Below are positions 8,076 through 33,761 of a DNA stretch of 36,871 bases, piece by piece. The notes under the pieces are model-generated. The model was not told where the DNA came from, ran no database searches, and was given only the letters and a program-made list of their open reading frames with translations. This stretch comes from Candidatus Rokubacteria bacterium GWA2_73_35 (GTDB lineage Bacteria; Methylomirabilota; Methylomirabilia; Rokubacteriales; CSP1-6): NCBI GenBank assembly GCA_001790205.1, contig MGBU01000238.1, positions 1-36,871 on the forward strand, read 5' to 3'. The first letter of the stretch is position 1; each line of letters begins with the position of its first letter. The position numbers were made by a program, and so were the translations under genes.

Positions 8076-10262
8076 ATGGGCGGACGCGCCTCTGTCGGTG
8101 GGCTGATCGCCGCGTTCGGCTTCGTCCTCGCCGTCGGCGCCGCGCGGGCCGAGCCGCTCGCGCCGCTGCCGCCGCTCCCGGCGTCCCCGCCCGAGCAGGT
8201 GGCGCTCGGGAGGCTCCTGTTCTTCGACACGCGCCTGTCGGGCGACGCCTCGATCTCGTGCGCCTCCTGCCACGACCCCAGGAAGGCGTGGGGTGACGGC
8301 AAGCCGCTCTCGACCGGCTACCCCGGCGCCGAGTACTTCCGCAACGCGCAGACCCTCCTGAACGCGGCGCACTACCGGCGCAGCTACTGGGACGGGCGGA
8401 TGGACGGCCGCGACCTGCCGACGCTCGTCCGCGACCACCTGACCGAGCCGGCCCTCATGCAGGTCGACGGCCGGCTCTTCCCCGAGCGCCTCAAGCAGGT
8501 GCCGGAGTACGACGCGATGTTCCGGAGGGTCTTCGGCGGCGAGCCCTCGTTCGGGCGCTCGCTGAACGCGATCGCGGCCTTTGTCCGGACCCTCACCTCC
8601 CGCGGCGCCCCGCTCGACCGCTACCTCGAGGGTGACACCGCCGCGCTGAGCCCCGCGGCCCGGGACGGGTTGGCGTTGTTCCAGGGCAAGGCGGGCTGTC
8701 TCCGGTGCCACGACGGCCCGCTGCTCTCGGACCAGAAGTTCCACGCCCTCGGCGTCCAGGACAGCGCCGCGGTCTTCGGCGAGCCCCTGCGGCACATCAC
8801 CTTCCGGTGGTTCATGAAGACGCTCGGCACGCCGAACTACACGAATCTCAGGGAGGACGTGGGCCGGTACGCCGTGACCAAGGAGCCGCCGGACCGCGGC
8901 AGGTTCAGGACGCCGTCGCTCCGCGATGTCGCGCTGACGGCTCCGTACATGCACAACGGGACCCTCGCGACGCTCGAGGAGGTCGTGGAGTTCTACAACC
9001 GGGGCGGCGGCATCCATCGGAACAAGAGCCCGCTGCTGGCACCGCTCGGGCTCGGTGCCGCCGAGAAGAAGGCACTGGTGGAGTTCCTCGAGGCGCTGAC
9101 CGGCGAGCCCGTCGTCGTCGACCCGCTGGCGCCGCCCGAATACAAGCTCCGGGCTCTCGGCAAGGGCTCGCCCGCTCCCGCCGGGCTGGTCGCGGCCTCC
9201 ACGGGCACCGCGCAGTCCGGGAAGTTCCGGGCGCTCGGGCCGCTCGGCCCCGTGCCCGTGCCCCGGGACAACCCGATGTCGGATGCGAAGGTGGAGCTGG
9301 GCAAGTTCCTGTTCTTCGATCCGCGGCTCTCCGGCGACGTCTCGACCCCCTGCGTCGCGTGCCACAACCCCGAGGCGGGCTGGGGCGACGGCAGCGACGT
9401 CTCGCGCGGCTATCCCGGGACCCAGCACTGGCGCAACTCGCAGACGGTCCTGAACGCCGCGTACTACTTCAAGCTCTTCTGGGCCGGCGAGGTGACGAGC
9501 CTCGAGGCCCAGGCCGTCGCCGCGGCGACCGGCAACGTCGCCGGCAACGGCGACCCGATGATGATGGAGGAGCGCCTGCGCCAGATCCCGGAGTACGTCC
9601 GCCGCTTCAAGGCCGTGTTCGGCACCGAGCAGCCGAGGATCATGGACGCCTGGAAGGCGATCGCCGCCTTCGAGCGGACGCTCGTCTCGAAGCCCGAGCA
9701 GGTGCCCTTCGACCGGTTCGTGAAGGGCGACCCCAAGGCGATCACCGACGAGGCCAGGCGCGGCCTCGCGCTCTTCCTGGGCAAGGCCGGCTGCATCCAG
9801 TGCCACAACGGTCCGCTCCTCTCCGACGACGACTACCACGCCCTTGGCGTGCCGAAGAACCCGGTGTTCGAGGAGGACCCGCTCCGGCAGATCACGCTCC
9901 GCTTCCAGCACGTGATCCGCGGCGTCCCGGAAGAGCTCTACCGGGTCGCCGACCGAGATCTCGGCCTCTACTACACGACCAAGCGCGAGGCCGACAGGGG
10001 CAAGTTCAGGACCCCGGGGCTGCGGGAGCTCAAGTACACGGCGCCCTACATGCACAACGGCGCGTTCTTCACGCTGGAGGAGGTGCTCGACTTCTACGAT
10101 CAGGGCGGCGGGAACGACGCGAACAAGAGCCCGCTCCTCAGGCCGCTCAAGCTTACGGCGCAGGAGAAGAAGGACCTCCTGGCCTTCCTCCTCTCGCTCT
10201 CGAGCGACCAGCCGATCGTCGTGCCGGCGCCCCAGCTGCCCGAGTACGCGGTCGTGAAATAG
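8076..10262 (+). CDS. Tandem (fused) di-haem cytochrome c peroxidase / MauG-like protein
   Basis: A 728-aa periplasmic protein made of two complete di-haem peroxidase modules. The signal peptide ends ARA-EP near residue 25. Module 1 has CASCH (62-66) and CLRCH (208-212) and ends PYMHNGTLATLEEVVEFYNR. Module 2 has CVACH (426-430) and CIQCH (573-577) and ends PYMHNGAFFTLEEVLDFYDQ. The haem spacing is nearly identical (146 and 147 residues), showing an internal duplication. Ordinary CcpA/MauG proteins are about half this length. In known idr clusters two separate peroxidases, IdrP1 and IdrP2, accompany the Mo and Rieske subunits; here they appear as one chain. AGGAGG precedes the ATG, and the Rieske gene starts 12 nt after the stop. 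Confidence 0.9.
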   Translation: MGGRASVGGLIAAFGFVLAVGAARAEPLAPLPPLPASPPEQVALGRLLFFDTRLSGDASISCASCHDPRKAWGDGKPLSTGYPGAEYFRNAQTLLNAAHYRRSYWDGRMDGRDLPTLVRDHLTEPALMQVDGRLFPERLKQVPEYDAMFRRVFGGEPSFGRSLNAIAAFVRTLTSRGAPLDRYLEGDTAALSPAARDGLALFQGKAGCLRCHDGPLLSDQKFHALGVQDSAAVFGEPLRHITFRWFMKTLGTPNYTNLREDVGRYAVTKEPPDRGRFRTPSLRDVALTAPYMHNGTLATLEEVVEFYNRGGGIHRNKSPLLAPLGLGAAEKKALVEFLEALTGEPVVVDPLAPPEYKLRALGKGSPAPAGLVAASTGTAQSGKFRALGPLGPVPVPRDNPMSDAKVELGKFLFFDPRLSGDVSTPCVACHNPEAGWGDGSDVSRGYPGTQHWRNSQTVLNAAYYFKLFWAGEVTSLEAQAVAAATGNVAGNGDPMMMEERLRQIPEYVRRFKAVFGTEQPRIMDAWKAIAAFERTLVSKPEQVPFDRFVKGDPKAITDEARRGLALFLGKAGCIQCHNGPLLSDDDYHALGVPKNPVFEEDPLRQITLRFQHVIRGVPEELYRVADRDLGLYYTTKREADRGKFRTPGLRELKYTAPYMHNGAFFTLEEVLDFYDQGGGNDANKSPLLRPLKLTAQEKKDLLAFLLSLSSDQPIVVPAPQLPEYAVVK

Positions 10263-10274: not shown

Positions 10275-10826
10275 ATGAGCCCGCACGAACACTCCGCCGA
10301 GCGGCCGTGCCTGTCGCGGCGCGCCTTCCTCCTGTCGGGCGGCACGGCGGTCACCGTGACGCTCCTCGACGGCCCCTTGAACCGCGCCTTCGGCCAGGGT
10401 GCCGCGCTCAAGCGGGCCAGCTACCCCGCGCGGCGGATCGGCCGGATCAGCCAGCTCGCGGTGGACCGGCCCGTGCCGTTCCAGTACCCGTGGAAGGACG
10501 CCTACTCCGCGAACATGCTCGTGAAGCTCGGCGTGCCCGCGGGCGGCGGCGTCGGCCCGGCCCGGGACGTCGTCGCGTTCTCGACGCTCTGCACCCACAT
10601 GGGCGGGCCGCTCGCCGGCCAGTACCGCGGCCAGCACAAGGTCGTGGGGCCCTGCCCCCTCCACCTCACCACGTTCGACCTCACCAAGCACGGCATGGTC
10701 GTCTCCGGCCAGGCCACCGAGACCCTCGCCCAGGTCGTGCTCGAGGCGCGCGGCGACGAGATCTGGGCCACCGGCGTCATGGGGCTCATCTACGGCTACC
10801 ACTCGAACCTGGCCGGGCGGGCCTGA
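10275..10826 (+). CDS. Tat-exported Rieske [2Fe-2S] subunit (AioB/IdrB-like)
   Basis: A 183-aa small subunit. The twin-arginine motif SRRAFLLSGG (about residues 14-23) predicts Tat export. The Rieske cluster ligands are Cys106/His108 in CTHMGG and Cys127/His130 in CPLHLTTFDL. The extra cysteine pair that makes the disulfide in bc1-type Rieske proteins is absent, as in some AioB proteins. Residues around CPLHLTTFDL are the AioB/IdrB form. The partner molybdopterin subunit is encoded 13 nt downstream and has no signal of its own, so co-export as a folded complex is expected. AGGAGG starts inside the previous stop codon region. The role is electron transfer between the Mo subunit and a periplasmic cytochrome or cupredoxin. 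Confidence 0.9.
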   Translation: MSPHEHSAERPCLSRRAFLLSGGTAVTVTLLDGPLNRAFGQGAALKRASYPARRIGRISQLAVDRPVPFQYPWKDAYSANMLVKLGVPAGGGVGPARDVVAFSTLCTHMGGPLAGQYRGQHKVVGPCPLHLTTFDLTKHGMVVSGQATETLAQVVLEARGDEIWATGVMGLIYGYHSNLAGRA

Positions 10827-10839: not shown

Positions 10840-13509
10840 ATGGCGCAGGGCGTGACCCCCTACTACCTGCCGGAGGACCGGATCCCGCTCCCGCCGGCCG
10901 ACGCGAAGGTGACGACGACGGCGTGCGACTACTGCATCGTCGGCTGCGGCTACAAGGTCTACACCTGGCCGCTCGGCCGCGAGGGCGGCCCCCGCGCGAG
11001 CCAGAACGCGCTCAGGGCCGAGTTCCCGGCGAAGGTGAACAGCGGCAAGTGGATCAGCCCGAACATGCACAACCTCGTGATGGTGGAGGGCCGGCCCCAT
11101 CACGTCCTCGTGGTCCCCGACGGCGACGCCAGGGTCGTGAACGTCGGCGGCAACCACTCGATCCGCGGCGGCGTGCTCGCGCAGAAGTGCTTCAACCCGA
11201 ACAAGCCCTCGCAGGAGCGGCTGCTCTACCCGATGATGCGGGTGCGCGGGACACTCCAGCCGGTGTCGTGGGACACGGCGCTCGACGTGATGGCCGGTGT
11301 CTCCCGTCACGTCCTCGACCGGCACGGCGAGCACGCGTGGGCGATGAAGACCTACTCCTACCAGTATTTCGAGAACACGTACGCGATCAGCAAGCTCGCG
11401 TTCGGCGCGATCGGCACGCCGGCCTACGCGCCTCACGACAAGCCGGGTCCCGGGCCCGACACGCCGGGACTCGACTGGGCCGGGATCGACGCCTTCAGCG
11501 CCTCGTACGAGGACTGGGGCATGGCCGATGTGATCTTCTTCTCCGGGGTGGACCCCTACGAGACCAAGTCGGTCCTGTTCACGTCCTGGATCATGCACGG
11601 CCAGAACCCTGACAAGAAGCTGATCTTCGCGCTGCCACGCAAGACGATGGGCGTCGCCTGGGGCGAGCAGCGGGGCGGGCTCTTTCTCCAGGTGATCCCC
11701 GGCACCGACACCGTGCTCCACCTGGCGCTGATCCGGATCATCCTCGAGAACGGCTGGGAGGACCGGGACTTCATCGACAGGTGGGTCGCCAATTCCTGGG
11801 AGATCGACGCCGGCATGGGGCGCGGCACCCGGAACACGCCCTGGCAGTGGTTCACGACGTGGGGACGCTACGGGATCGACTTCGCTGGGTACAGGAAGTG
11901 GATCCTCGGCTACAGGTGGGCCGAGCTCGACACCGCCGCTCGGCTCACGGGCGTGCCGGCCGCGTCCATCAGGCAGGCGGCCGAGATGCTCGCCAGGCCG
12001 CGGCCGGACGGCTCGCGCCCCAGGACGTCCTTCATGCTCGAGAAGGGCAACTACTGGTGCAACAACCTCGGCAACACGACGTCGTATGCGGCGCTCGGGC
12101 TCGTCTGCGGGGCCGGCAACCGGCCGGGCCGCGTGATCTCACGCGGCGGCGGCCATCAGCGGGGCTGGATGGGCGGGGCCGGCTACCCGCGCGGCCTCTC
12201 GCCCGAGAAGTATCCCGGGCGGCGAAAGAAGGAAATCGACCTCGACCGCTGGGTTGCCGAGGGCAACGTGCGCTTCGCCTGGGTGATCGGGACCACCTGG
12301 CTGCAGGCCATGGCCGCCTCGCAGGAGCTGATGGACGTCTTCCACCGGCTCACGCGCCAGAGCCCGCACCAGATCGCGAGCACGCGCCCGGCGGCCGCGA
12401 TCGAGAGCCTCACGCGACGCGCGGACTCGGGCGGCATGGTGGTCGTGCACCAGGACATCTACCCGGTGGACCCGATCGGCACCCAGCTCGCCGACCTCGT
12501 CCTGCCGGCCGCCACGTGGGGCGAGGAGGACTTCACCCGCTGCAACGGCGAGCGCCGCCTCCGACTGTACGCGCAGTTCAACGACCCGCCCGGCGAGGCC
12601 AGGCCCGACTGGCAGATCATCGCCGGGTTCGCCAGGAAGATGGGCTTCGAGGGCTTCGACTGGAAGGACTCGAACGAGATCTTCGAGGAGGCCGCGCGCT
12701 TCGGCCGGGGCGGCGTGCTCAACTACCACCCGCTCGTCGTGAAGGCCAAACAGGAGGGCAGGCGCGCCCACGACCTGCTGCGGGCGTACGGCACCGAGGG
12801 CATCCAGACGCCGATCCGGATGGTCGGCGGCAAGCTCGTCGGCACCAAGCGCCTGCACGACTCGACGCTCCAGCTCGGCACCCCGGAGGGCCCCACGACC
12901 CATCCGAAGTGGCTCACGGCCTTCGGCACCCATTCGGGGAAGGCCGTGCTCCTCAGGAGCTACTGGGAGGATTTCCAGGACTTCTACGAGGCGGTCAAGC
13001 CCACCGGTGACGAGCTGTGGGTCACCAACGGACGGATCAACGAGACGTGGCAGTCGGGCTACGACGACTTCCGCCGCCCCTACATCATGGCCCGGTGGCC
13101 CTCGATGTTCGTCGAGATGCACCCGGATGACGCCAGCGCGCGGGGCATCGAGAGCGGCGACCTCGTCGCCGTCGAGAACGACCGTGTGCTCGTGCAGACG
13201 GGCGGCTTCCAGGGGGTGGAAGAGAAGGAGCTCACGTTCACCGAGCTCCGCCGGGCCGGCCACATCAAGACGACCACCGCGAGCTTCACGGCGGTGGCCG
13301 TCGTCTCCGACGCGGTGCGCCGGGGCGTGGTCTGGGCGCTCATGCTCTGGCCGGGCTCGCCCGCCAACTCGGTCGTGCCCCAGGTGCCGGACCCGGTGAC
13401 GAACCGGGCGCGCTTCAAGCTCGGCAAGGGCCGGGTCACGAAGCTCGGCGAGAGCCCGCACAAGCGGTCGTTCACGACGATGTCGCTCAAGCCCCGGCCG
13501 ATCGTGTGA
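10840..13509 (+). CDS. AioA/IdrA-type molybdopterin oxidoreductase large subunit (iodate-reductase-like)
   Basis: An 889-aa member of the arsenite-oxidase branch of the DMSO-reductase family. The N-terminal Fe-S motif is C-x2-C-x3-C (Cys29, 32, 36 in CDYCIVGCGYKVYTWP), as in AioA. A fourth cysteine is not at the usual place, but one occurs nearby in AQKCFNPN. Further AioA-like segments are SYEDWGMADVIFFSG, TDTVLHLALIRIILENGW, GGHQRGWMGG and ITNGRINETWQSGYDD-like sequence near the C-terminus. Arg and His in SRGGGHQ match AioA Arg419/His423, but the region that holds AioA His195 and Glu203 has neither residue. No signal peptide; export with the Rieske subunit is likely. With two peroxidase modules and a Rieske protein beside it, an IdrA-like function (iodate or a related oxyanion) is more likely than arsenite oxidation. 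The substrate is inferred. Confidence 0.85.
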   Translation: MAQGVTPYYLPEDRIPLPPADAKVTTTACDYCIVGCGYKVYTWPLGREGGPRASQNALRAEFPAKVNSGKWISPNMHNLVMVEGRPHHVLVVPDGDARVVNVGGNHSIRGGVLAQKCFNPNKPSQERLLYPMMRVRGTLQPVSWDTALDVMAGVSRHVLDRHGEHAWAMKTYSYQYFENTYAISKLAFGAIGTPAYAPHDKPGPGPDTPGLDWAGIDAFSASYEDWGMADVIFFSGVDPYETKSVLFTSWIMHGQNPDKKLIFALPRKTMGVAWGEQRGGLFLQVIPGTDTVLHLALIRIILENGWEDRDFIDRWVANSWEIDAGMGRGTRNTPWQWFTTWGRYGIDFAGYRKWILGYRWAELDTAARLTGVPAASIRQAAEMLARPRPDGSRPRTSFMLEKGNYWCNNLGNTTSYAALGLVCGAGNRPGRVISRGGGHQRGWMGGAGYPRGLSPEKYPGRRKKEIDLDRWVAEGNVRFAWVIGTTWLQAMAASQELMDVFHRLTRQSPHQIASTRPAAAIESLTRRADSGGMVVVHQDIYPVDPIGTQLADLVLPAATWGEEDFTRCNGERRLRLYAQFNDPPGEARPDWQIIAGFARKMGFEGFDWKDSNEIFEEAARFGRGGVLNYHPLVVKAKQEGRRAHDLLRAYGTEGIQTPIRMVGGKLVGTKRLHDSTLQLGTPEGPTTHPKWLTAFGTHSGKAVLLRSYWEDFQDFYEAVKPTGDELWVTNGRINETWQSGYDDFRRPYIMARWPSMFVEMHPDDASARGIESGDLVAVENDRVLVQTGGFQGVEEKELTFTELRRAGHIKTTTASFTAVAVVSDAVRRGVVWALMLWPGSPANSVVPQVPDPVTNRARFKLGKGRVTKLGESPHKRSFTTMSLKPRPIV

Positions 13510-13547: not shown

Positions 13548-15542
13548 ATGACGCCTCGAGCGCGGGAGCGCCCGCGCGGCCGGACGCGCCGGACGGCCGC
13601 GAGCCTCGTCGCCTTCGCCTGCGTCCTGGCCGCGGCCGTCGCCCTGGCGGCCGGCCCGCCCGCGGCGGCCGCCGGCGGGGCCGCGGCGGCCGAGTACCGG
13701 AGCTTCTACGGGACCAGCGCGCGCCTCGTCGTCTGGATCGTCGCCGAGCTGCACCTGATGTTCGGCGCGTTCGTCCTCGGCGTGCCGATCTTCGCCTCGA
13801 TCGTCGAGGTCATCGGCTGGCGCGGCGGCGACCCACGCTACGACCGGCTCGCCCACGAGTTCACGGGGCTCCTCGCGGCCGCGTTCTCGACGACGGCGGC
13901 GTTCGGCGGGCTCCTGGTGTTCGCGCTGATCGGCCTCTACCCGCGGTTCATGACCTTCCTGACCTCGGTCTTCCACGAGACCTACTACGTCTACGCGCTC
14001 CTGTTCTTCGCCGAGGGCTTCACCCTCTATCTCTACTACTACGGCTGGGACCGGATGCGCGGGCGCCTGAAGGGGCTCCACGTCGCCCTCGGGATCCTCC
14101 TGAACGTCTGGGGCACGGTGCTGATGCTGATCGCGAACGCGTGGGTCGCCTACATGATGGCGCCCACCGGGATCGACAGGAAGACGCTGGAGTTCGTGGG
14201 GACCACCTGGCAGGCGGTGGCGAACCCTCTCTGGATCCCGCTCGCGATCCACCGCGTGCTCGGCAACGTCGCGTTCGGCGGCTTCATCGTCGGCGCGTAC
14301 GCGGCCGTCAGGTTCCTGGGCGCGCGCACCGAGGCGGCGCGGGCCCACTACGACTGGATGGGCTACGTCGGCAACTTCGTGGGCCTCGGCGCGCTGATCC
14401 CGCTGCCCTTCGCGGGCTACTACCTGGGCCGGGAGATCTACTCCACGAGCGCGGTCATGGGCAACAACATGATGGGCGGCGCCTTCTCGTGGACCTTCAT
14501 CCTCCAGGCCGTGCTGATCGGGATCCTGTTCATCGGCGGCAACTACTATCTCTGGATCGGCATGGGCCGCATCGAGGGCGCCGAGCGCTACCGGCCGTGG
14601 GTCAAGTACATCAACCTGGTGCTCCTCCTCTCCTTCGCCGTCTGGCTCACGCCGCGCAACGTCCCGCTGACGGGCGAGGAGCAGACGGCCCTGGGCGGCC
14701 AGTTCCACCCGCTGCTCAAGTACCTCGGGCTCATGTCGGCGAAGAACGCGGCGGTGAACTTCATCATCCTCAGCACGTTCTTCTCCTTCCTCCTCTACCG
14801 CCGCGGCAACAAGGGACGCCCGCGCCCCTTCGCCGCGCACGGGCGCGTGGGCCTGCTCGTGCTGACCGCGGGCGCCGCCGTCGCGATCTCGATCCTCCTC
14901 TGGTACGCGCGCGCCCTGCTCACCCTCGACCCGAAGACGCTCGACCTCACCGCGGCCCAGGCCGGCTACTTCAAGCCGCCCGCGTACCTCCTGCTCGGCC
15001 AGGCCGTCATGGTGCTCGTGACCGCGACGCTCGCCCTCCGCGATCGGGGGACGCTCGCCCAGGCGCTCTTCTTCGCCTCCACGACGCTGGCGTCGGTCTT
15101 CGTGCTCGGCGTCTACGGCTTCGTCGTCATGGAGCGCGCGAACCCCTTCCTCCGGAACGTGGCGGTCGCCCAGTGGCTCATGGTGATGGTGTGCCTCCTC
15201 TGGAACACGGTGCTCGATGTCCTCGTGTTCCGCGGCGCCGAGACCGCGGGCGGCATCCGCTGGGGCCGGATGCCCGCGCGCTCGCAGTACACGCTGATTC
15301 TCCTCTGCGTGACGATCGTGATGCTGATGGGGCTCATGGGCTTCATCCGCTCGGGCCTGCGCGAGGACTGGCACGTCTACGGCGTCCTCCAGGACACCTC
15401 GCCGTGGGCCTGGACCCCGACCACCGCGTACATGACCCGGGTCGTCGGCGCGATCGTGCTCGGCTTCCTCGGCCTGGTGGCCTTCGTCTTCTGGCTCGCG
15501 GGGCTCGGCGAGAAGAAGGACCACGGCGGGGCGCCCGCGTGA
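13548..15542 (+). CDS. Extended CydA-like (cytochrome bd superfamily) membrane protein, no CydB
   Basis: A 664-aa integral membrane protein with about 15 hydrophobic segments, against nine in classical CydA. The N-terminal half resembles CydA: His in ELHLMFGAFVLG (like haem-ligand His19), FFAEGFTLYLYYYGWDRM (like the helix ending GWDRL), LIANAWVAYM (like VANGWM) and His in LAIHRVLGNVAFGG (like His186). The periplasmic Q-loop with the quinol-binding Lys/Glu of E. coli CydA is not recognisable, and the position of E. coli Glu99 reads Val. No cydB follows; instead two multihaem cytochromes c are encoded in overlap. This suggests a bd-family oxidase or oxidoreductase that exchanges electrons with cytochrome c, as proposed for bd-like oxidases of Nitrospira-type bacteria. 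Catalytic activity is unproven. Confidence 0.8.
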   Translation: MTPRARERPRGRTRRTAASLVAFACVLAAAVALAAGPPAAAAGGAAAAEYRSFYGTSARLVVWIVAELHLMFGAFVLGVPIFASIVEVIGWRGGDPRYDRLAHEFTGLLAAAFSTTAAFGGLLVFALIGLYPRFMTFLTSVFHETYYVYALLFFAEGFTLYLYYYGWDRMRGRLKGLHVALGILLNVWGTVLMLIANAWVAYMMAPTGIDRKTLEFVGTTWQAVANPLWIPLAIHRVLGNVAFGGFIVGAYAAVRFLGARTEAARAHYDWMGYVGNFVGLGALIPLPFAGYYLGREIYSTSAVMGNNMMGGAFSWTFILQAVLIGILFIGGNYYLWIGMGRIEGAERYRPWVKYINLVLLLSFAVWLTPRNVPLTGEEQTALGGQFHPLLKYLGLMSAKNAAVNFIILSTFFSFLLYRRGNKGRPRPFAAHGRVGLLVLTAGAAVAISILLWYARALLTLDPKTLDLTAAQAGYFKPPAYLLLGQAVMVLVTATLALRDRGTLAQALFFASTTLASVFVLGVYGFVVMERANPFLRNVAVAQWLMVMVCLLWNTVLDVLVFRGAETAGGIRWGRMPARSQYTLILLCVTIVMLMGLMGFIRSGLREDWHVYGVLQDTSPWAWTPTTAYMTRVVGAIVLGFLGLVAFVFWLAGLGEKKDHGGAPA

Positions 15543-16525
15543 GACGGCCGTTCCTCGGCGTCGCCGTCTTCACGGTCGTCGTCGTGCTCGCGATCGCGGC
15601 CGTCGGCGAGATGATCACGCGCGTCTCCGGCGAGGGCGGGCGCCGGCCCGCCGTGGCCGTCAGCGCCGGGACCATCACCCCCGAGGCGGGCGAGACGGTC
15701 TTCTGGGGCAAGGGCAAGTGCTCGACCTGCCATGCCGTCGGCACGCGGGGCGGCGCGGTGCGCGGCCCCAACCAGGGCGAGGGGGGGCCGCTGGGCTTGC
15801 CGATCGGCGCGCGCGCCGGGGAGCGGGCCCGCGAGCGGGCGAGGGCGACGGGCAAGCCGTACACGGCGACGGACTACCTCGTGGAGGCGCTGGCGGACCC
15901 GGGCGCCTACGTCGTGCAGGGCTACAAGAACGAGATGCCGAACCCGTTCCAGCCGCCGATCCGCCTCGGCTCCGACGAGGTCCGCGCCGTGATCGCGTAC
16001 CTCCAGTCCCTCGGGGGCACGGTGGATCTCGCCGCCATCAAGCTCCCCGCCGGGCTCGAGGCGAAGTCCCGCGCGGCGGCGGAGTGGAAGCCCTACGTCG
16101 CCGGCGACAGCGAGAAGGGCGAGAAGCTCTTCTTCGACGTCGACTCGAGCGCGGGCTGCGGCAAGTGCCATCGCGTGGGCACGCGCGGCGGCAGCGTCGG
16201 ACCCGAGCTGACCACGGTGGCCGGCACGCGGGATCCCGTGTTCATCGTCGAGTCGATCCTGGAGCCCTCGAAGGTGATCGCCTCGGGCTACGAGACCGTG
16301 CTGATCATCACGAAGAGCGACCAGTACGTCACCGGCATCGTCAAGAGGGAGGACGCGACGACGGTCGAGGTCGCCGACAGCCAGGGGAGGATCCAGCAGG
16401 TCGCCAGGGCCGACATCAAGCAGCGGACGCCCCAGACCGTCTCGATGATGCCGGGGAACTTCAAGGAGATCCTCACGGTCGAGGAGTTCCACGACCTGCT
16501 CGCGTTCGTCCTGGGGCTCCGGTGA
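15539..16525 (+). CDS. Membrane-anchored di-haem cytochrome c with TIGR02603-like domain
   Basis: A 328-aa protein. One N-terminal transmembrane anchor (about residues 5-23) is followed by a first cytochrome c domain with CSTCH (61-65) and a second with CGKCH (207-211). The region from GPELTTVAGTRDPVFIVESI through SMMPGNFKEILTVEEFHDLL matches the putative haem-binding domain TIGR02603 known from planctomycete cytochromes. GTG 15539 overlaps the cydA-like stop as GTGA; the longer ORF from 14141 is a shadow of the cydA-like gene. The next gene overlaps its stop in the same way. The tight coupling argues that this is a structural partner of the CydA-like protein, probably carrying electrons to or from it on the periplasmic face. 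Confidence 0.87.
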   Translation: MRRPFLGVAVFTVVVVLAIAAVGEMITRVSGEGGRRPAVAVSAGTITPEAGETVFWGKGKCSTCHAVGTRGGAVRGPNQGEGGPLGLPIGARAGERARERARATGKPYTATDYLVEALADPGAYVVQGYKNEMPNPFQPPIRLGSDEVRAVIAYLQSLGGTVDLAAIKLPAGLEAKSRAAAEWKPYVAGDSEKGEKLFFDVDSSAGCGKCHRVGTRGGSVGPELTTVAGTRDPVFIVESILEPSKVIASGYETVLIITKSDQYVTGIVKREDATTVEVADSQGRIQQVARADIKQRTPQTVSMMPGNFKEILTVEEFHDLLAFVLGLR

Positions 16526-18855
16526 GTCGGCCGCGCCGCCTGCCCCTCTTCTGGAACGTCGTCATCGCGCTGGCGATCGTCTGGGCGCTCCTCGCGTGGG
16601 GCCTGCCCTGGCTCGGGATGTGGGTGACGGGCGGGCCGCGGCCGCTCCCCGTGCCGGGCGTCGTCCGCCTGATCTACCTGCTGCTCGCCCTCGTCGGCGC
16701 GGCGGTCTACGTGACGATCAGCGACGAGTCGCTCCGCGAGTTCCTCCGGCCACCGGTCGCGGGCTTGCGCGGGCCCGACCCGGCCGCGCCGCACGCGCGC
16801 TGGCGCAGGCTCGCGCGCCTGGTCGTCCTCGTCCTCCTTCCGCTGCTCGCGGGCGCCGCCGTCTACGCCCGCACGGCGCCGACGGCCCAGAGCCCGACCA
16901 TCTTGCGGATCCAGCACCCGACGATCCCGGGGGCGTACGAGAAGCGCTCGAACCCGTTCCGTGGGCGGTCCGACGAGGCCGCGATCCTCGCCGAGGGGCG
17001 GGAGATCTTCCAGATCAACTGCCGCCCCTGTCACGGCGACGCCGCCGACGGCGCCGGGCCGATGGCCTGGGGCTTTCGGCTCAAGCCCGCGAATTTCACC
17101 GACGCCGGCACGATCGCCACCGTCGTCGAGTCGTACGCCTTCTGGCGCGTCACCGTGGGCGGGCCCGGCCTGCCGCCGGAGGCGACGCCGTGGGACTCGG
17201 CGATGCCGACCTGGCGCCACGACCTCACCGACGAGCAGAAGTGGAAGGCCGTGATGGCCGCCTACGACCTGGCCGGCGTCGAGCCGCGCAAGCCGGAGAG
17301 GCTCGGCTGGCTCCATCCGTCCGGCGCCTGGGCGCAGACGACGCCCGCGGGGACGCCCGAGGGCCTCGCGCGCGGCAAGCGGATCTACGCGAAGCGCTGC
17401 CAGGCCTGCCACGGCGAGAAGGGCGACGGGCTCGGCCCCGTGGCGCCCTACCTGAACCCGCGGCCGCGCGACTTCACGCTCGGCGCGTTCAAGTTGAGGA
17501 CCACGGGCTCGGGCGAGCCGCCGACGGACGAGGACCTCTTCCGCGTCGTGACGCGCGGCGTCCCCGGCACCGCGATGTCGGGCTGGACGACGCTCTCGGC
17601 CGACGAGCGCTGGCAGGTGATCGCATACCTCAAGACGTTCAGCACCGCGTTCCAGGAGCCGCGCACCGTGGTGAGCGCGGGGCGCGGGCCCGCGGCTTCG
17701 CCGGAGCTGCTCGCCCGGGGCCGGCAGGTCTACCAGAAGGCCAAGTGCTGGGAGTGCCACGGCGAGAGCGGCCGGGGCGACGGGCCCGCGGCGCCGACCC
17801 TGAAGGACGACGCGAAGAACACCATCCGCGCCGCCAATCTCCAGAAGGGCTGGCTCATGAAGGGCGGCCGCGAGGCCGCGGACATCTTCATGCGCTTCTC
17901 CACCGGGGTCGACGGCACCCCCATGCCCTCGTACGCCGACTCGCTCTCCGAGGACGAGCGCTGGGCCCTCGCCCACTACGTGACGTCGCTCCAGACGACG
18001 GAGGAGCCGGGCGCGGAGGTCGTCCTGCGGGCCACCCGGGTCGCGGGCCCATTGCCCGGCGACCCCGCCGATCCCCGCTGGCGGGCGCAGCCCTTCCTCG
18101 CCGTGCCGCTCGCGGGCCAGGTCCTCGCCAGGCCGCGCTGGCAGAACCACGCCGTCGACGTCGTCAGCATCCGCGCCCTCTACGACGAGCGCGCGATCGC
18201 GTTCCTGCTCGAGTGGGACGACCGCTTCGAGGACGTCGAGCACCGGCCCGGTCCCGAGCCGGCGCTCGCCCCGTGGACCTACCCCAGGATCGACCTCGAC
18301 CCCGAGCGCCGGGAGCGGCTGCGGGACGCGATCCGGCTCCAGTTCCCGGTGGCGATCCCGACGGGGCCCGAGCGCCCGCACTTCTTCCTCGGGAACCCCG
18401 GGCGCCCGGTCGCGCTCTGGCACTGGCGCGCCGACGCGAACGGGCGGGGCGACGCCGCCGTCGTCAAGGAGCGCGCCGAGGGGTGGGAGAAGCCCGTCGT
18501 CGAGCTGCCCGCGGCGAGCCAGGACGTGAGCGCCCGCGGGGCGTGGAAGGACGGCCGCTGGCGCGTCGTCCTGACGCGCCCGCTCGGGCCGAAGGACCCC
18601 GCGAGCGACGTGGCCTTCGAGCCCGGCCGCCTCGTGCCCTTCGCGGTCCACGCCTGGGACGGCTCGAACGGCGAGCGCGGGCTCAGGATGTCGCTCTCGT
18701 CCTGGAGCTTCGTCGTCCTCGACGCGCCCCCGCCGGCGACCGTCTACGTCTACCCGCTGCTGGGCGTCGGCCTCGTCGGCGTCGCGGAGTGGTGGCTCGT
18801 CAGGCGCGTGCGGCGGCGGGCGCCTCAGGCCGACGCGGCCGCGCGCGACGCGTAG
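16522..18855 (+). CDS. Tri-haem cytochrome c fused to EBDH-gamma-like haem b domain
   Basis: A 777-aa protein. Three N-terminal hydrophobic segments (about residues 8-30, 45-65, 95-117) are followed by three cytochrome c domains with CRPCH (167-171), CQACH (293-297) and CWECH (409-413). A C-terminal region of about 240 residues (RVAGPLPGDPADPRWRAQPF onward, with SIRALYDERAIAFLLEWDD and RMSLSSWSFVVL) matches the gamma subunit fold of ethylbenzene dehydrogenase/DMS dehydrogenase. A C-terminal membrane helix ends in RRVRRR. GTG 16522 overlaps the previous stop. The minus-strand gene 25537-27225 has the same fusion with two haems, so the two operons share a subunit type. The tail overlaps the convergent gene by 31 bp. 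Likely a wire between periplasmic enzymes and the membrane protein. Confidence 0.87.
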   Translation: MSRPRRLPLFWNVVIALAIVWALLAWGLPWLGMWVTGGPRPLPVPGVVRLIYLLLALVGAAVYVTISDESLREFLRPPVAGLRGPDPAAPHARWRRLARLVVLVLLPLLAGAAVYARTAPTAQSPTILRIQHPTIPGAYEKRSNPFRGRSDEAAILAEGREIFQINCRPCHGDAADGAGPMAWGFRLKPANFTDAGTIATVVESYAFWRVTVGGPGLPPEATPWDSAMPTWRHDLTDEQKWKAVMAAYDLAGVEPRKPERLGWLHPSGAWAQTTPAGTPEGLARGKRIYAKRCQACHGEKGDGLGPVAPYLNPRPRDFTLGAFKLRTTGSGEPPTDEDLFRVVTRGVPGTAMSGWTTLSADERWQVIAYLKTFSTAFQEPRTVVSAGRGPAASPELLARGRQVYQKAKCWECHGESGRGDGPAAPTLKDDAKNTIRAANLQKGWLMKGGREAADIFMRFSTGVDGTPMPSYADSLSEDERWALAHYVTSLQTTEEPGAEVVLRATRVAGPLPGDPADPRWRAQPFLAVPLAGQVLARPRWQNHAVDVVSIRALYDERAIAFLLEWDDRFEDVEHRPGPEPALAPWTYPRIDLDPERRERLRDAIRLQFPVAIPTGPERPHFFLGNPGRPVALWHWRADANGRGDAAVVKERAEGWEKPVVELPAASQDVSARGAWKDGRWRVVLTRPLGPKDPASDVAFEPGRLVPFAVHAWDGSNGERGLRMSLSSWSFVVLDAPPPATVYVYPLLGVGLVGVAEWWLVRRVRRRAPQADAAARDA

Positions 18856-19715
18856 AGCTCGGCGCAGCGGGCGCACACACCGTCGGCGGGCCGCCAGGCC
18901 GGGAAGTCGCGGACGATCGCCGCGAGCGCGCGGCCCGCGAGCGTCGCGCCGGCGACCACGACGGGTCCCGGCAGGTCGCAGAGCCCGCAGCGGGGCCGCG
19001 GGGCGGCCTCCGGACCACCGACGGCGAACGCCATGAGGTCCGCGTGGCTGCGCTGGTCGGCGTCGAAGAAGCGCGCGAAGGCCGACTCGGCGGCCTCGCC
19101 CAGGTAGGCGTACGCGCGCGCGAACTCGCGAAGGCGCTCGGCGCGCGAGCCGGCGGGGAGGCACCCGCGGCGCGCGAGCCGCCCGTCCACGTAGGCGTTC
19201 CAGAGCACGCGGTAGTTCTCGCGGACGAGGTGCTCGCGCGGGCCGCCGGCGACGTCGGCCGGCACCCCCGGCGCGTAGCCGAAGCGCGGGTCGAGCATGT
19301 CGGCCACGTGCAGCAGCTCGCGGCGGAGGAGGACGCCCAGCCGCGCCGGCGCGGCGACGGTCTCGCAGGTCACCCGGACGAGGAGCGTCGGGGAGGCCCC
19401 CGGGGGGACGAGCAGGTCGGCGCCCTCGTCACCACGCCGGCGCGCCCAGGCGACGAGCCAGCGCGCGCAGCGGGCGACGATCGCCGGCCGCTCCTCGAGG
19501 GCCTCGCGGAACGGCCGGTCGAGTCCCAGGCGCGCGAACCACGCCGCGTGGAGCGTGTCGAAGGCCGTCTCGCGCTCGGCGCCCTCGGCGATCCCGTAGA
19601 GCCGGTCGCGCTCGGCGCGGAAGCGTGCCTCCTCCGCCCGCCCGGCCACGGCGAGGAGCACGGCCCCCTCGACGAGACGCGGCTCCCACTCGGGCTCGAG
19701 GCGCGCCGGCGTCAT
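18825..19715 (-). CDS. Uncharacterised protein with paired C-terminal CxxC motifs, last gene of the Nxr-like operon
   Basis: A 296-aa cytoplasmic protein that I cannot assign to a named family. The N-terminal two thirds are helical and Arg/Ala-rich. In the middle, RRELLHVADMLDPRFGY resembles a zinc-peptidase HExxH helix in which the first His is Arg. The C-terminus has CGLCDL and, about 45 residues later, CARC, together a possible zinc ribbon or rubredoxin-like knuckle. The start is ATG 19715, overlapping the TorD stop as ATGA; the ORF track start at 20039 lies inside torD and is a shadow. Its coupling to torD suggests an assembly or cofactor-insertion factor for the molybdoenzyme. The 3' end overlaps the convergent cytochrome gene. 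Confidence 0.75.
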   Translation of the reverse strand: MTPARLEPEWEPRLVEGAVLLAVAGRAEEARFRAERDRLYGIAEGAERETAFDTLHAAWFARLGLDRPFREALEERPAIVARCARWLVAWARRRGDEGADLLVPPGASPTLLVRVTCETVAAPARLGVLLRRELLHVADMLDPRFGYAPGVPADVAGGPREHLVRENYRVLWNAYVDGRLARRGCLPAGSRAERLREFARAYAYLGEAAESAFARFFDADQRSHADLMAFAVGGPEAAPRPRCGLCDLPGPVVVAGATLAGRALAAIVRDFPAWRPADGVCARCAELYASRAAASA

Positions 19716-20548
19716 GCCTCGAGCGGGGCGCCGGCCGGCCCGCAGGCCATCGGCGTCGCGTCGGGCGCCGTGGAGCGGAGGCTGAGAAAGGACGGGCCGA
19801 CGGCGACGCCCGCGCGCCCGCACTCGGCGGTGACGACCCCGACGAGCAGGCCGCCGAGCACACCGTAGAACCCATCGGGGTCGAGTCGCGCGAGCGCGCC
19901 GCCGAAGGCGGGCGCCCAGCGGCCCAGGTGGTCGCGGAGGAACAGGCGCGTGGCGCGGCGCGCCTCGTCGCCGAGCGGCGCGTCGCCGAGCGCCGAGGCG
20001 CGCGCCTCGCGCCGCGCCAGGACGAGGAGGAACTCGCACTCGCAGGCGATGTGGTCGGGGCGCTCGCGGGCGCCGGGATCGAGCACGAGGCCGAAGGCGC
20101 GGAAGAACGCCCCGAGGTCGCTCATCTCGCGCTGAGGCGCCCAGAGCGAGTCCTCGCCGTACTCGGTCTCGTAGGGCGACGCCGCGCCGCGCGCGGTGTG
20201 GCCGAACAGGCGGCCGTATGCGAGGCCGAGCGCCTCGCCCGACGGCGCCGGCGCGACGGCGAGCGCCCGCACCAGCGGCGCGAGCGCGGTCCCGTCCGCG
20301 GCGTCGAGCGGCGCGGCCGCCTCGGCGAGCGCGCCCGCCCCCTCGGCCCGTGCGAGCCGCGCGACCGTCTCCTCGGTCGGTGGGCAGAAGCCAAGCACCA
20401 GCGCCTCCCAGAGGGCGCTTCGACAGAGCAAGAGATCCACCGCTTCGAGCGCGGGCTTTGCCCGCGCCTTCGACGGGGGGAGGTTCGGAAGGGGGGCGGA
20501 GCCCCCCTCCGAGCTAGATCGAGTTGGCGTGCCTGCTCGATCGGACAT
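19712..20548 (-). CDS. TorD/NarJ-family molybdoenzyme chaperone
   Basis: A dedicated chaperone that holds the apo Mo subunit and guards its Tat signal. Family motifs: YGRLFGH, SPYETEYGED, MSDLGAFFRAFGL, ERPDHIACECEFLLVLARRE and TRLFLRDHLGRWAPAF. The start is uncertain. ATG 20548 has GAGGAG 7 nt upstream but overlaps the beta-subunit gene by 35 bp and makes about 36 N-terminal residues (GGSAPLPNLPP...) from two strong hairpins. GTG 20440 would give a 242-aa protein starting VDLLLCRSALWEAL, closer to the usual family length. The 3' end overlaps the next gene by ATGA. It serves the alpha subunit encoded upstream in the same operon. Confidence 0.87.
   Translation of the reverse strand: MSDRAGTPTRSSSEGGSAPLPNLPPSKARAKPALEAVDLLLCRSALWEALVLGFCPPTEETVARLARAEGAGALAEAAAPLDAADGTALAPLVRALAVAPAPSGEALGLAYGRLFGHTARGAASPYETEYGEDSLWAPQREMSDLGAFFRAFGLVLDPGARERPDHIACECEFLLVLARREARASALGDAPLGDEARRATRLFLRDHLGRWAPAFGGALARLDPDGFYGVLGGLLVGVVTAECGRAGVAVGPSFLSLRSTAPDATPMACGPAGAPLEA
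20449..20467. repeat. Hairpin at the beta-subunit/torD junction (inner)
   Basis: GCGCGGGC and GCCCGCGC form a perfect 8-bp stem around a TTT loop (AAA on the coding strand), just upstream of the alternative GTG start of torD at 20440. Confidence 0.5.
20490..20508. repeat. G-run/C-run hairpin at the beta-subunit/torD junction (outer)
   Basis: AGGGGGGC and GCCCCCCT form an 8-bp stem with the triloop GGA, 6 bp from the beta-subunit stop. It resembles the hairpin at 2151-2177 and may be a copy of the same palindromic family. Confidence 0.55.
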
Positions 20549-21779
20549 GGATCGGCTCCTCGACCTTCGTCCGGAACAGCTCCTCGCCGCGCCGCCCGTA
20601 GGCGATCACCGTGTCGTCGTGGACCGTGACCTTCCTGCCGCGCAGCGTGCCCTCGTACACCTTCGGACCCTCGACGACCTTGTAGCCGAAGATGATCTTG
20701 TTCGACCGCCGGAAGAGCTGGAGCACGGCGGTCAGCTCGCGGTCGGGCTTCTCGTAGCGCTCGAGCGCCGCGTCCACGCCGGGGCCGAACATCTGCCGGA
20801 GGTAGGGGCGCGGCACCCAGCGCGGGGGAATGTAGTAGCCGTTCGGCTCGGTGCCGAACTGCGGGTAGAGCGGCAGGGCCACCTTCGCCACATGCACGAG
20901 GTAGTAGAGCGGGTTCTGCCGGTCCTCGGCCCAGGTGCCGTCCGGGTTCAGCCTGACGAGCCCCTGGAGCCGGATCTGGCCGATGCACGCCGCCATGCAG
21001 CGCGTCTCGAGCGGCACGCCGCCGCTCTCCGGGTCCCTGCCCTCGACGCGCGGGTAGCAGGCGACGCACTTCTCCGACACCCGCGTGTTGCCGCGGTACA
21101 TCGACTTCTTGTACGGGCACGCCTCGACGCACTTCCGGTAGCCGCGGCACTCGGCCTGATCGATGAGGACGATCCCGTCCTCGGGCCGCTTGTAGATCGC
21201 CTTGCGCGGGCAGGCGGCCAGACAGGCCGGATACTGGCAGTGGTTGCAGATGCGCGCGAGATAGAAGAACCAGGTCTTGTGCTCCGGCAGCGACTCGCCG
21301 GTCCTGTGGTACTCGCGGGGCTTGCCGCGCTCGCCGACGGGGTTGTCCTCGTAGATGTTCGGCGAGTTCCACTCGTCGTCGGCCGGCAGGTAGCCGAGCA
21401 CGCGCGCGCTGTCGGGGGTCAGCATGCGTGGGGCCTCGAAGATCGTCTGCCCCTCGAACCGACCCCAGGGGCCCCGAGGGTCGCCGGCGGGCGCGCCGGT
21501 CCAGCGCTGGCCGTCCGGGTTTGCGCGCTCGAGCAGCTCCAGGATCTTCATGTCCCAGAACATCGGGTAGCCGCCGTAGGGCTTCGTCTCGACGTTGGCC
21601 CACCACATGTGCTCCTGGCCCTTCGAGAAGGTCCACGTGGACTTGCAGGCCATCGTGCAGCTCTGGCAGGCGATGCAGCGGTTGATGTTGAACACGAACG
21701 CGAACTGCGCGCGGGGATACGCCGCATCGTACGTGTAGGTCATCTCCCGGCCGAGCTGCCAGTTGTGGACGCGCGCCAT
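20514..21779 (-). CDS. NxrB/NarH-like iron-sulfur beta subunit
   Basis: A 421-aa electron-transfer subunit with four Fe-S cluster motifs: CIACQSCTMACKSTW, CNHCQYPACLAACPRKA, CRGYRKCVEACPYKK (Tyr in place of a Cys, as Trp is in NarH, implying a [3Fe-4S] cluster) and CVACYPR paired with CMAACIGQIR. NWQLGREMTY, NVETKPYGGYP and VALPLYPQFGTEPNGYYIPP are strongly like NxrB/NarH-type subunits of type II DMSO reductases, especially the periplasmic Nxr group. It has no signal peptide, so it would be exported with the Tat-targeted alpha subunit. ATG 21779 is 3 nt after the stop of the 97-aa gene. It relays electrons between the Mo site and the haem-containing gamma-like subunit. Confidence 0.93.
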   Translation of the reverse strand: MARVHNWQLGREMTYTYDAAYPRAQFAFVFNINRCIACQSCTMACKSTWTFSKGQEHMWWANVETKPYGGYPMFWDMKILELLERANPDGQRWTGAPAGDPRGPWGRFEGQTIFEAPRMLTPDSARVLGYLPADDEWNSPNIYEDNPVGERGKPREYHRTGESLPEHKTWFFYLARICNHCQYPACLAACPRKAIYKRPEDGIVLIDQAECRGYRKCVEACPYKKSMYRGNTRVSEKCVACYPRVEGRDPESGGVPLETRCMAACIGQIRLQGLVRLNPDGTWAEDRQNPLYYLVHVAKVALPLYPQFGTEPNGYYIPPRWVPRPYLRQMFGPGVDAALERYEKPDRELTAVLQLFRRSNKIIFGYKVVEGPKVYEGTLRGRKVTVHDDTVIAYGRRGEELFRTKVEEPIHVRSSRHANSI

Positions 21780-21782
21780 ACG

Positions 21783-22076
21783 CTAGTCCCTCCCGGTCAC
21801 TTCGGCGGCCGGCGGCCCCGTGTGGGCGCCGAACACGCCGACGCACTCCCGGACGATCGCGGTGACTTCGGTCTCCCCGAGCAGTCGAAGAGCGCGGTGG
21901 GCGCCGGCGTAGAACGGCGACCGGAACAGGCCGAGGATCCGCGGCGCGTCGAATCCCATGCGCGCGAACTCCTCGGCGAACACCCAGGCCATGTCCCGCG
22001 TCGCCTCCAGCTCCGCCGGAAGCGCCACGCCCACCAGGACGCCGGGATCGGTCGGATCCGGGTCGCCGTACGGCAC
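21783..22076 (-). CDS. 97-aa uncharacterised protein between alpha and beta subunit genes
   Basis: A small protein with no family I recognise. It starts at GTG 22076, 1 nt after the alpha-subunit stop, and ends 3 nt before the beta-subunit ATG, so it is locked into the operon. The sequence is mildly acidic and helical: a D/P-rich start (MPYGDPDPTDPG), then EATRDMAWVFAEEFARMGFD and GLFRSPFYAGAHRALRLLGE. There are no cysteines, no signal peptide and no membrane segment. The codon pattern (G/C at third positions) matches its neighbours, supporting a real gene. It could be a small chaperone or an extra subunit of the complex; neither can be shown from sequence. Confidence 0.75.
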   Translation of the reverse strand: MPYGDPDPTDPGVLVGVALPAELEATRDMAWVFAEEFARMGFDAPRILGLFRSPFYAGAHRALRLLGETEVTAIVRECVGVFGAHTGPPAAEVTGRD

Positions 22077-22077
22077 G

Positions 22078-25000
22078 CTAGGCCTTCCGGTAGAGGTCGC
22101 CGGCGATGTAGCGCTTCATGAACTCGTTCTCGTTGTCGGGCGTGAATCCGGTCGTCGCGGGCGCCCAGACGCCCCTGCCGCCGAGGCCGCCGTCCTCGGC
22201 CTTGGTGACCTTCACGAGCGTCTCCTTGGGCACCGTGTTGAGCGCGTGGTTGTCCGCCTCGCCGCCGAAGATGAACCCCATGAAGACCTTGGCCTTGTGG
22301 AACAGCGAGTCGGTCTGGTGCATCGGCATGTGCCAGTTGCGCGTGACGGACTGCTGCGAGCCGTAGCGCAGGTTCGCCTGGTAGCCGGTGTTCTCGCTGA
22401 GCGCGCGGCCGTCGGGACGGGTTTCGTGCGCCTTCACGCTCTTCTCGGTGGCGATGAACGGCGCGTGCTTCATCATGACGCAGTCGTACGGGTACGCGTG
22501 GTTGTACTTCACGCGGAGCATGCAGCGCGACACGCGATAGAACGGGTCGTCGGGCCGTGCGCCCAGGTACGGCCGGTCGGCCGGGTTCGCGTCCACGTAA
22601 ACATAATCGCCGTCGTTGATTCCCAGGTCGCGCGCAGCCTGAGGATTCATGTGGAGCTGGTGCTCCCCGACCGAAGGGGCCCGCTTGTCGAGACGGTACG
22701 GATCCCCGAAGTTGGAGTCGTACAGCATGTGCCAGTCCACGTTCGACCAGCCCGAGTGGACGCGGTGGCGCGTCTTCGGCGTGAGACAGTAGAAGTGGTA
22801 GCCCTTCTCCCAGAGGAAGTTCTTCGTCCCTTTGACCCGGCTCCACGGGAGCTTCACGTTGCGGATCGTTCGCTCGTCCCAGTGCTCCGCCGTGAGCGGG
22901 ATCCCGTAGTCGTCCGGGCGAACGAGCGGGTTCGAGGACACGATGACGTTCGGCAAGTACGGCGTCGCCTCCGGGCCCTCGCGGTGCACGATGAAGTTCT
23001 CGCCATACTCGATCGCCTCGGGGACGTCGGCGTACGCGTGGAGCCGCCCGGTGTCGGTGTGGAACGGCTCCGAGTCGTGGACCTGCTCCCAGAACGGGAT
23101 GCGCGGATAGGTGCGGAAGAGCATGAGCGCGCCGCCGCGCGGCCCGTACTTGCCCGCCATGATGTCGGCGAGCCTGTAGCCGGCGGTCGTCGTCGAGGTG
23201 TCGAGCAGGCGCTGGATGTAGACCTCGCGCCCGCCCGCGAGCGCGAACTTGAAGTAGTCGGCGAAGCGCCGGTCGCCGGTGACGTCCGCGAGCGCCTTCG
23301 CGATCCCCGCGAGGATCATCAGGTCGTCGCGGCTGTCGAAGACCGGCGGAATGCCGCCCTTCCAGATCTGGAGGAACGGGTTCGAGCAGCTCGCCGTCAC
23401 CTCGAGCCCCTCGAACTCCAGCCAGCTGTTGGCCGGCAGCGCGATGTCCGCGTACTCGATCGACGCGGTCATCTGGATGTCGATCGCGACGATCATCTCG
23501 ACCTTCGGGTTCACGTTCTTGATGACGCCGTACGCCCACTTGGCGTTGTTGATCAGGTTGACGTTCGTGAAGATGATCGCCTTGCTCGGCGTGGGCATGT
23601 GGGTGTCGCCGGTGAAGTTCCGCCGGCCGTACTTCGGCGTGTCGACGATCAGCGCGAGGTCGCCGTGGTTCCAGTACGCGGGCTCCTCGTCCTTCGTGTA
23701 CGCGTGCGCCTCCACGTCGCGGCCGTGGGCGCCGGGGTCGAGGTTCGGCTGGAACGGGTCCTCGGCGACCCAGCCCTTGAAGCCCGGGCCCGTCTCCTTC
23801 GAGCCCTGGAAGAGGGCCGCCTTGTAGTTCCCCGCCCAGGTGTGGCACCCCGCGCCGGGCTTGCCGATGTTGCCGGTGAGCATCAGCGGCAGGTACGCGG
23901 CGCGGTTCATCTCGGTCGCGTGGAACCAGTGGTTGATCCCCTCGCCCTGGTGGATCGCCACCGGCCTCATCGTGCCGATGTCCTGCGCGAGCTGCCGGAT
24001 CAGGTCCCCGGGCGCCTGGGTGATCTCGACGACCGTGTCGAGGTCGTAGTCCTTGAGGTGCGTGCCGTAGAGGGTCCAGAGGGTGGCGACCTCCACCTCC
24101 GCGCCGTCCACGAGCTTCACCTTCCAGGTTCCGTCGAGAGCCGGCCGGATGCCCTTCGCCGCCATCCGCGCACCGACGTCGTCGCGCGTGAGGGCGCGCA
24201 GGGCCCCCGCCTGCGCGTCCCAGACGACGTAATCGCCGAGCCTGGCGTGCTGCTCGGCCGTGAGTCCCTGGACCTTCACCGAGGGGCCGTCGGGCGCGAG
24301 CGTCGTCCTGTAGCCGGGGAAGACCTCGTGGGCGCGCAGGCGCCGCAGCGTGTCGGTGCGGACGAGGAGCGGGAAGTCGGTGAAGGCCCGGACGAAGCCC
24401 TCGTCGTACCACTTGTTCTCGAGCATCAGGCGCGTGACGCCGAGCCAGAGGGCGGCGTCGGTCTGGGGCCGGATGGGGATCCAGTAGTCCGCCTTGGTGG
24501 ACGGCGGCCCGTACTCGGGCGCGATGACGACGATCTTCGCGCCGCGCTCCATGCACTCGATGAACCAGTGGGAATCGGTGAGCTTGTTCTCCACCAGGTT
24601 CTTGCCGTCCATGATGATGAGCTTGGAGAACCGGAGGTCGTTGAAGTCGCAGTCCGAGGCCTGGAGCCCGTGCACCCAGGGGTGGCCGGGCGCCTGGTCG
24701 CCGTGCCAGGTGTAGTTGGACCAGTTGCGGCCGGCCTTCGCGTCCTTCGATCCGACGCGACGGATCGCCGCGTCGAGCAGCGCGAGGGAGTTGTTGAGCC
24801 GGTACATGCCGTACTTGCCGATGACGCCGAGGAGCCCCATGCCGCCGCGCATCTTGATCGTGCGCGTGCCGGCGCCTCCCATCGCCTCGACCATCTCCGG
24901 CTGGTAGCCCTGCGCGAGCAGGCGCGCCTTCCCGTCCTCGCCGCTGTAGCTTTCGGCGATCTTGACCAGCGCCTTCGCGATGCAGGCGAAGGCGTCCTCC

Positions 25001-25515: not shown

Positions 25516-25536
25516 CCGCTTCCTCCTCAGAGCGAG

Positions 25537-27325: not shown

Positions 27326-27373
27326 AGGGGCGGGGGAGTGCCAACCCTCTTGGGACTGGAACATACTTCACTA

Positions 27374-27390
27374 ACTGAATATCATTCAGT
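27374..27390. promoter_or_regulatory. TetR/FadR-type operator overlapping a -10 box
   Basis: ACTGAAT-ATC-ATTCAGT is a perfect 7-bp inverted repeat. It covers the -10 box TATCAT (27380-27385), which is 6 nt before the GTG at 27392. The TGAAT...ATTCA core resembles TetR-type FadR boxes of fatty-acid degradation genes. A bound repressor would block polymerase. The TetR gene at 34915 is the natural candidate. Confidence 0.6.
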
Positions 27391-27391
27391 C

Positions 27392-28543: not shown

Positions 28544-28582
28544 ACGCTCGAGCGCCCGGCACTCACGGTGACCGGGTGGGGG

Positions 28583-28618
28583 GTGTCGGGGAGGAGCGGC
28601 GCTCGCTCCCCCCGACGC
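28583..28618. repeat. Bulged intergenic hairpin before the amidohydrolase gene
   Basis: GTCGGGG plus GGAGCG pair with CGCTCC plus CCCCGAC, giving 13 bp with one bulged A and a 5-nt loop. It fills most of the 85-nt gap between acyl-CoA dehydrogenase and amidohydrolase and ends 10 nt before the ATG. Confidence 0.55.
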
Positions 28619-33760: not shown

Positions 33761-33761
33761 C

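Follow-up and report, generated by a model that had tools for sequence, protein, structure and literature searches.

The three-gene module at positions 13548-18855 of the DNA analysed here is best explained as a whole by a membrane-bound complex that exchanges electrons with periplasmic molybdenum (Mo) enzymes, with the quinone side favoured in the membrane; we put the probability of this reading at roughly 0.58. The window, i.e., the whole stretch of 36,871 nucleotides that was analysed, is an entire contig (36.9 kb) from a metagenome-assembled genome (MAG) of Rokubacteria (Methylomirabilota), the host being a soil/groundwater bacterium. The module is already known from Nitrospira, Nitrospina and anammox bacteria, and the window holds its Rokubacterial form. 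New are its linkage to an Idr-type operon, a paralogous clade that is encoded in the operon of a haem-copper oxidase and, in Scalindua, is fused to a cytochrome, and the loss of haem ligands in the EB_dh domain together with a correlated residue swap. Gene content, linkage, the fold of the core, the loss of Q-loop and CydB and the conservation of the module are shown by the analysis.

Gene Content and Core Protein of the Module

The module consists of three genes:

13548-15542, plus strand: CydA-like (bd-like, clade I) membrane protein, 664 aa, 15 TM helices, without Q-loop (PF01654, tree, AlphaFold model)
15539-16525, plus strand: membrane-anchored dihaem cytochrome c with a TIGR02603 domain, 328 aa (CSTCH, CGKCH)
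16522-18855, plus strand: monohaem cytochrome c fused to a dihaem c/EB_dh "alternative NxrC", 777 aa (CRPCH, CQACH, CWECH)

A first-pass annotation of the sequence had described an extended CydA-like protein of about 15 helices without CydB, followed by two cytochrome c genes with GTGA overlaps and carrying five c-type haems. Coordinates and motifs bear this out: the start/stop overlaps lie at 15539-15542 and 16522-16525, and the two cytochrome genes contain 2 + 3 = 5 CxxCH motifs. The cytochrome c linkage of the CydA-like protein claimed in that annotation is likewise supported, and the three proteins (CydA-like, dihaem c, trihaem c/EB_dh) would form a single complex. The CydA-like protein is 82-83% identical to its closest named relatives, from Candidatus Rokuibacteriota. 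The gene set and its order are identical in the related MAGs L150, L155, and L159, which makes a chimeric contig improbable.

The AlphaFold model of the CydA-like protein (mean pLDDT 88.6, pTM 0.87) showed an N-terminal signal/anchor helix and then 15 TM helices, and its PDB matches at E < 0.001 were cytochrome bd subunits only. The PF01654 match (80 bits) was restricted to residues 58-294 and ended at profile position 234 of 418; the model has TM helices where the Q-loop would be. The Q-loop had been called unrecognisable before, and an intact one was looked for by alignment and not found. Lys252 and Glu257 are the quinol residues of canonical cytochrome bd; in a weak alignment to the mycobacterial enzyme, extended by a few residues, their positions are taken by invariant Met304 and Met309.

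The ligand roles of the CydA residues His19, His186, Met393, and Glu445 are established from cytochrome bd structures. When the family profile was aligned with E. coli CydA, His19 and Glu107 fell on H69 and E156 in well-aligned stretches (z of 13-17 over shuffles for the N-terminal half), Glu99 fell on Y149, and hhalign placed His186 on H235, which upholds the earlier statement that the His equivalents of CydA are kept. The C-terminal halves aligned with a z of 0.7, i.e., not above chance, so equivalents of Met393 and Glu445 cannot be placed; for the same reason the pairs Glu445 = Ser602 and Arg448 = Arg605, assigned by eye, were dropped. H69 is present in 77/80 clade I and 32/32 clade II sequences, and Y149, E156, and H235 are invariant in the sequences compared. 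Three betaproteobacterial clade I proteins (L051, L058, L081) carry Lys instead of H69. The clade II partners of these three retain His at the site.

No CydB was found in this genome (77% complete) or in 46 of the 48 other module genomes, while 10 of 14 control genomes were positive; these and the other presence/absence counts come from incomplete MAGs. The two relatives with CydB encode it on a contig other than that of the module, and a cydB consistently paired with this cydA was thus not seen. An ordinary cytochrome bd quinol oxidase with an overlooked cydB would account for the PF01654 match, but is contradicted by the missing Q-loop and by the CydB counts, which leave it practically no probability. 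The earlier placement of the protein within the bd superfamily, but apart from the quinol oxidases, is supported. The module shares with canonical cytochrome bd (CydAB) the fold of the N-terminal half and the equivalents of His19, Glu107, and His186, but differs from it in lacking Q-loop and CydB, in six additional TM helices and in the replacement of Glu99 by Tyr, and its C-terminal half is unrecognisable by sequence.

Relation to Described Gene Clusters

In Nitrospira moscoviensis, the module comprises an alternative NxrC, two cytochromes c and bd-like_3, with bd-like_4 downstream (PMC6606698). For Nitrospina and Kuenenia, PMC3578206 describes cytochromes c with one and with two haems, alternative NxrC, cupredoxin-like proteins and a bd-like oxidase that has 14 TM helices and, at the site of the Q-loop, three helices; the function is called "enigmatic." The shared gene content makes the window module a member of this described module, and the novelty first attributed to the complex did not hold. 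The clusters of N. moscoviensis, Nitrospina gracilis and Kuenenia have in common with the window a CydA-like core of about 14-15 TM helices in which TM helices stand instead of the Q-loop, cytochromes c of the mono- and dihaem kind, alternative NxrC, a cupredoxin-like protein, a chaperone and a nearby NXR. Compared with them, the window differs in the fusion of the monohaem cytochrome c to the alternative NxrC, in the changed haem b ligands of the EB_dh domain, in the idr-type operon directly upstream and in an NXR operon convergent with the module.

The Idr-Type and NXR Operons Flanking the Module

The neighbouring genes are:

7335-8060, plus strand: cupredoxin-like protein with a signal peptide and, at its C-terminus, a carboxypeptidase-regulatory-like domain; GTG start after AAGGAGG
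8076-10262, plus strand: two fused dihaem peroxidase-like (MauG/CCP) units of IdrP2-IdrP1 type, four CxxCH (PF03150, 280 bits)
10275-10826, plus strand: Rieske subunit of IdrB type with a Tat-like N-terminus (TIGR02694, 124 bits, above cut-off; RRAFL motif)
10840-13509, plus strand: molybdopterin subunit of IdrA type (identity, tree)
18825-19718, minus strand: protein containing two pairs of Cys; may correspond to the "putative zinc finger" known from NXR clusters
19715-20548, minus strand: NarJ/TorD-type chaperone (PF02613, 73.7 bits; TIGR03482 below its cut-off)
20514-21779, minus strand: NXR beta subunit, Fe-S (93% identical in L150)
22078-25515, minus strand: NXR alpha subunit (full-length match to Kuenenia NXR-A 7b04_B, 1767 bits)
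25537-27225, minus strand: NXR gamma subunit with a dihaem c domain

The large subunit at 10840-13509 is about 60% identical to that of the Azonexus ccp-ccp-small(Rieske)-large(Mo) cluster and 30-32% identical to true AioA. Upstream of the module we thus found both a large subunit of the IdrA clade and the gene order P2-P1-B-A, the published order of iodate reductase genes (PMC10989891). Judged by these features, the Mo enzyme directly upstream is of the iodate-reductase (IdrP-B-A) type; iodate reduction by it is putative. With described Idr (PMC8692401, PMC10989891) the operon shares two CCP genes, here fused, as well as the Rieske and Mo subunits and the gene order; the halves of the fused protein match separate tandem genes in other loci. 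The operon is 48-60% identical to plasmid-borne idr-like clusters and, unlike described Idr, precedes a bd-like module. The openly licensed literature searched contained no report joining iodate reductase and cytochrome bd, and a search for CydA-like relatives on plasmids gave distant partial matches only.

In the protein encoded at 7335-8060, His, Asn and C-x2-H-x2-M are invariant in 72/72 homologues, and a homologue lies at most 1.5 kb upstream of 56/116 CydA-like genes. Its copper domain had no identifying match in Pfam, NCBIfam or the PDB, so the assignment as cupredoxin rests on the motif, which we take to be that of type-1 copper in cupredoxins resembling amicyanin. Further upstream (4203-7168), a sensor kinase and a LuxR-type response regulator are encoded; the kinase probably regulates idr, since a 55% identical copy adjoins the idr operon in locus L156, which is without the cydA module.

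The downstream operon (20514-27225), with a full-length NXR-A together with NXR-B and NXR-C, is by its sequence a true NXR of the Nitrospira/anammox type. The module therefore sits between an IdrA-type enzyme and NXR, in line with the periplasmic Mo enzymes assumed as electron sources in the first-pass annotation. A family search with the protein at 18825-19718 gave no match; a homologue stands at the equivalent place beside NXR in the congeneric L150, and its Cys pairs are C-terminal. The region 27338-34898 (acyl-CoA dehydrogenases, amidohydrolase, AMP-binding enzyme, zinc alcohol dehydrogenase) is an unrelated catabolic region.

Conservation of the Module and Its Linkage to Mo Enzymes

A CydA-similarity scan yielded 576 relatives, of which 79 loci were retained. 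Although these were fetched by CydA similarity alone, they show in many phyla the conserved order cupredoxin, cydA, dihaem c, monohaem c, dihaem c/EB_dh. Of the 24 proteobacterial loci whose upstream flank reaches at least 6.5 kb, 22 have the idr operon upstream on the same strand, the starts of idrA and the cydA-like gene being 4.7-6.4 kb apart. The operon also adjoins the module in SAR324, in the window and in two other Rokubacteria (G132/G137), whereas in Nitrospinota it lies on the module contig within about 12-15 kb and in another orientation. In proteobacterial loci, a gene for a HEAT-repeat protein of about 750 aa separates idrA from the bd-like module (L079:6955-9216 and similar).

There are exceptions to the linkage: of the 10 Methylomirabilota genomes in which IdrA was matched, 7 are without clade I. 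IdrA was detected in 29 and NxrA in 9 of the 48 module genomes, and about 11 of the 48, some of them incomplete, show neither. We rejected the idea of a module specific to NXR, given the 9/48 count. In the anammox loci, NxrC and NxrB come after the module. We also rejected a clade of bd-linked IdrA copies apart from the others, as linked and unlinked IdrA are interleaved in the tree (at least 4 changes).

The presence of bd-like genes beside an iodate-reductase-like enzyme in many bacteria suggests a job broader than nitrite oxidation. A further consequence concerns the equation of a complete idrABP1P2 set with iodate respiration: many such sets carry an added membrane module. The proteobacterial hosts may moreover grow more easily than anammox bacteria or Nitrospina.

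Two Clades of CydA-Like Proteins

In a quick tree, the CydA-like proteins fell into clades I and II (SH-aLRT 100; long branches). Clade I comprises the window copy and those of anammox bacteria, Nitrospinota and Nitrospirota, apart from clade II; the second CydA-like copy of this genome (contig C150, L123) belongs to clade II. In Rokubacteria, clade II shares an operon with COX1: a haem-copper oxidase operon comes after its module in 16/20 fetched loci and in this genome. Of the remaining four loci, L179 and L180 stop at the edge of their contig, and L181 and L185 come from different families of the class. The clade II protein of two Scalindua species carries, fused at its C-terminus, a cytochrome c with two CxxCH (L125:8283-10817, L127:6686-9232; PF01654 at 46-279 and PF00034 at 753-838), a physical link between core and cytochrome for the paralogue. 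The strict anaerobes Kuenenia, Brocadia, and Jettenia have clade I and lack clade II.

The two clades could be thought to form an obligate heterodimer in which a second CydA-like protein replaces CydB, as clade II is encoded in this genome (C150) and forms a tandem pair with clade I in the majority of proteobacterial loci. However, among 95 Methylomirabilota genomes clade II occurs in about 50 and clade I in about 11, most anammox genomes searched have clade I alone, and each clade has its own set of cytochromes. We rejected an obligate pairing as contradicted by this distribution and regard it as improbable.

The Electron Partner on the Membrane Side

Most likely, the complex serves as cytochrome c/cupredoxin-coupled membrane electron transfer for periplasmic Mo enzymes. 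A CydA-derived core without the canonical quinol site would be joined to five periplasmic c-haems and the alternative-NxrC domain, and the cupredoxin would be the likely mobile carrier. Electrons would pass in either direction between the Mo enzyme (IdrA-type upstream, NXR downstream), the cupredoxin and c-haems, and the b-haems of the core, whose partner on the membrane side would be the quinone pool, with the exchange linked to the proton-motive force. Such an exchange was proposed earlier for nitrite oxidisers (PMC3578206, PMC6606698). If coupled in this way, the flow could be reversible for different partners.

For the membrane-side partner itself, the quinone pool with proton-motive force coupling is our tentative first choice, at somewhat under even odds. 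We favour it over O2 because clade I is retained without clade II in strict anaerobes, because three members have Lys at the His19 site and because the paralogue shares an operon with a haem-copper oxidase. Counting against it, no quinone site can be indicated in the CydA-like protein, the Lys252/Glu257 positions being Met304/Met309 in the weak alignment, and the kept equivalents of His19, Glu107, and His186 are what one would expect of an O2-reducing core.

A cytochrome c:O2 oxidoreductase (OR-N type "CydAA-prime"), passing electrons of the Mo enzymes via the c-haems to O2 at a b- or d-type haem pair, is accordingly the weightiest alternative and a realistic one, if less probable. Almost all members retain the superfamily oxygen-site residues His19 and Glu107, and the fold of the core matches cytochrome bd only. 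The OR-N family (Murali et al., 2021, via PMC10839748 and PMC12342949) is likewise CydA-only, without quinol site and linked to cytochrome c, and its members are classed in the latter two papers as putative cytochrome c-oxidising O2 reductases. However, strictly anaerobic anammox genomes retain clade I without clade II, Glu99 is replaced by an invariant Tyr, three members have Lys at the His19 site, and the Rokubacterial clade II module belongs to the operon of a haem-copper oxidase. Of the first-pass wording, "c-linked bd-type oxidase or oxidoreductase," the c-linked, non-quinol type thus stood, while the same three observations (anaerobes, Lys at His19, operon of the paralogue) speak against the oxidase part as a necessary function.

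The repeated Idr-type linkage in several phyla together with the operon of the paralogue points to a general partner of periplasmic electron-exchange enzymes, a role that narrows the hypotheses on the module. In its boldest form, the bd fold would be reused as a reversible cytochrome c/cupredoxin:quinone oxidoreductase, coupled to the proton-motive force and serving any high-potential periplasmic Mo enzyme (NXR, Idr); we consider this rather doubtful, but if true, it would in effect be a third type of complex III, one with a cytochrome bd core. Numerous Rokubacteria that carry the clade II module encode a haem-copper oxidase but no bc1 cytochrome b. An argument for complex III replacement from this absence was dropped, as a control detected ActD of alternative complex III in 69/95 Methylomirabilota genomes, so that a quinol:cytochrome c enzyme is not missing in most Rokubacteria. 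Alternative complex III resembles the module in its proposed quinone-cytochrome c linking role and its oxidase gene neighbours, but no common subunits were found, and it (ActD) is encoded separately in this genome.

Haem Ligands of the EB_dh Domain

The third protein (16522-18855) had been assigned an EBDH-gamma domain. The EB_dh match (79 bits) stands, but the known haem b ligands of the EbdC type are absent, both having been replaced (Met by Leu623 and Lys by Met723). Residues 620 and 723 vary together in the 81 homologues compared, with His/Met in 36/81 and Tyr/Lys in 17/81, counts that are inflated by relatedness. From this swap of Tyr/Met/Lys to His/x/Met we would guess that haem b in alternative NxrC may be ligated by His and Met (620/723). 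Unlike alternative NxrC, the genuine NXR gamma subunit (25537-27225) keeps both the Met and the Lys ligand.
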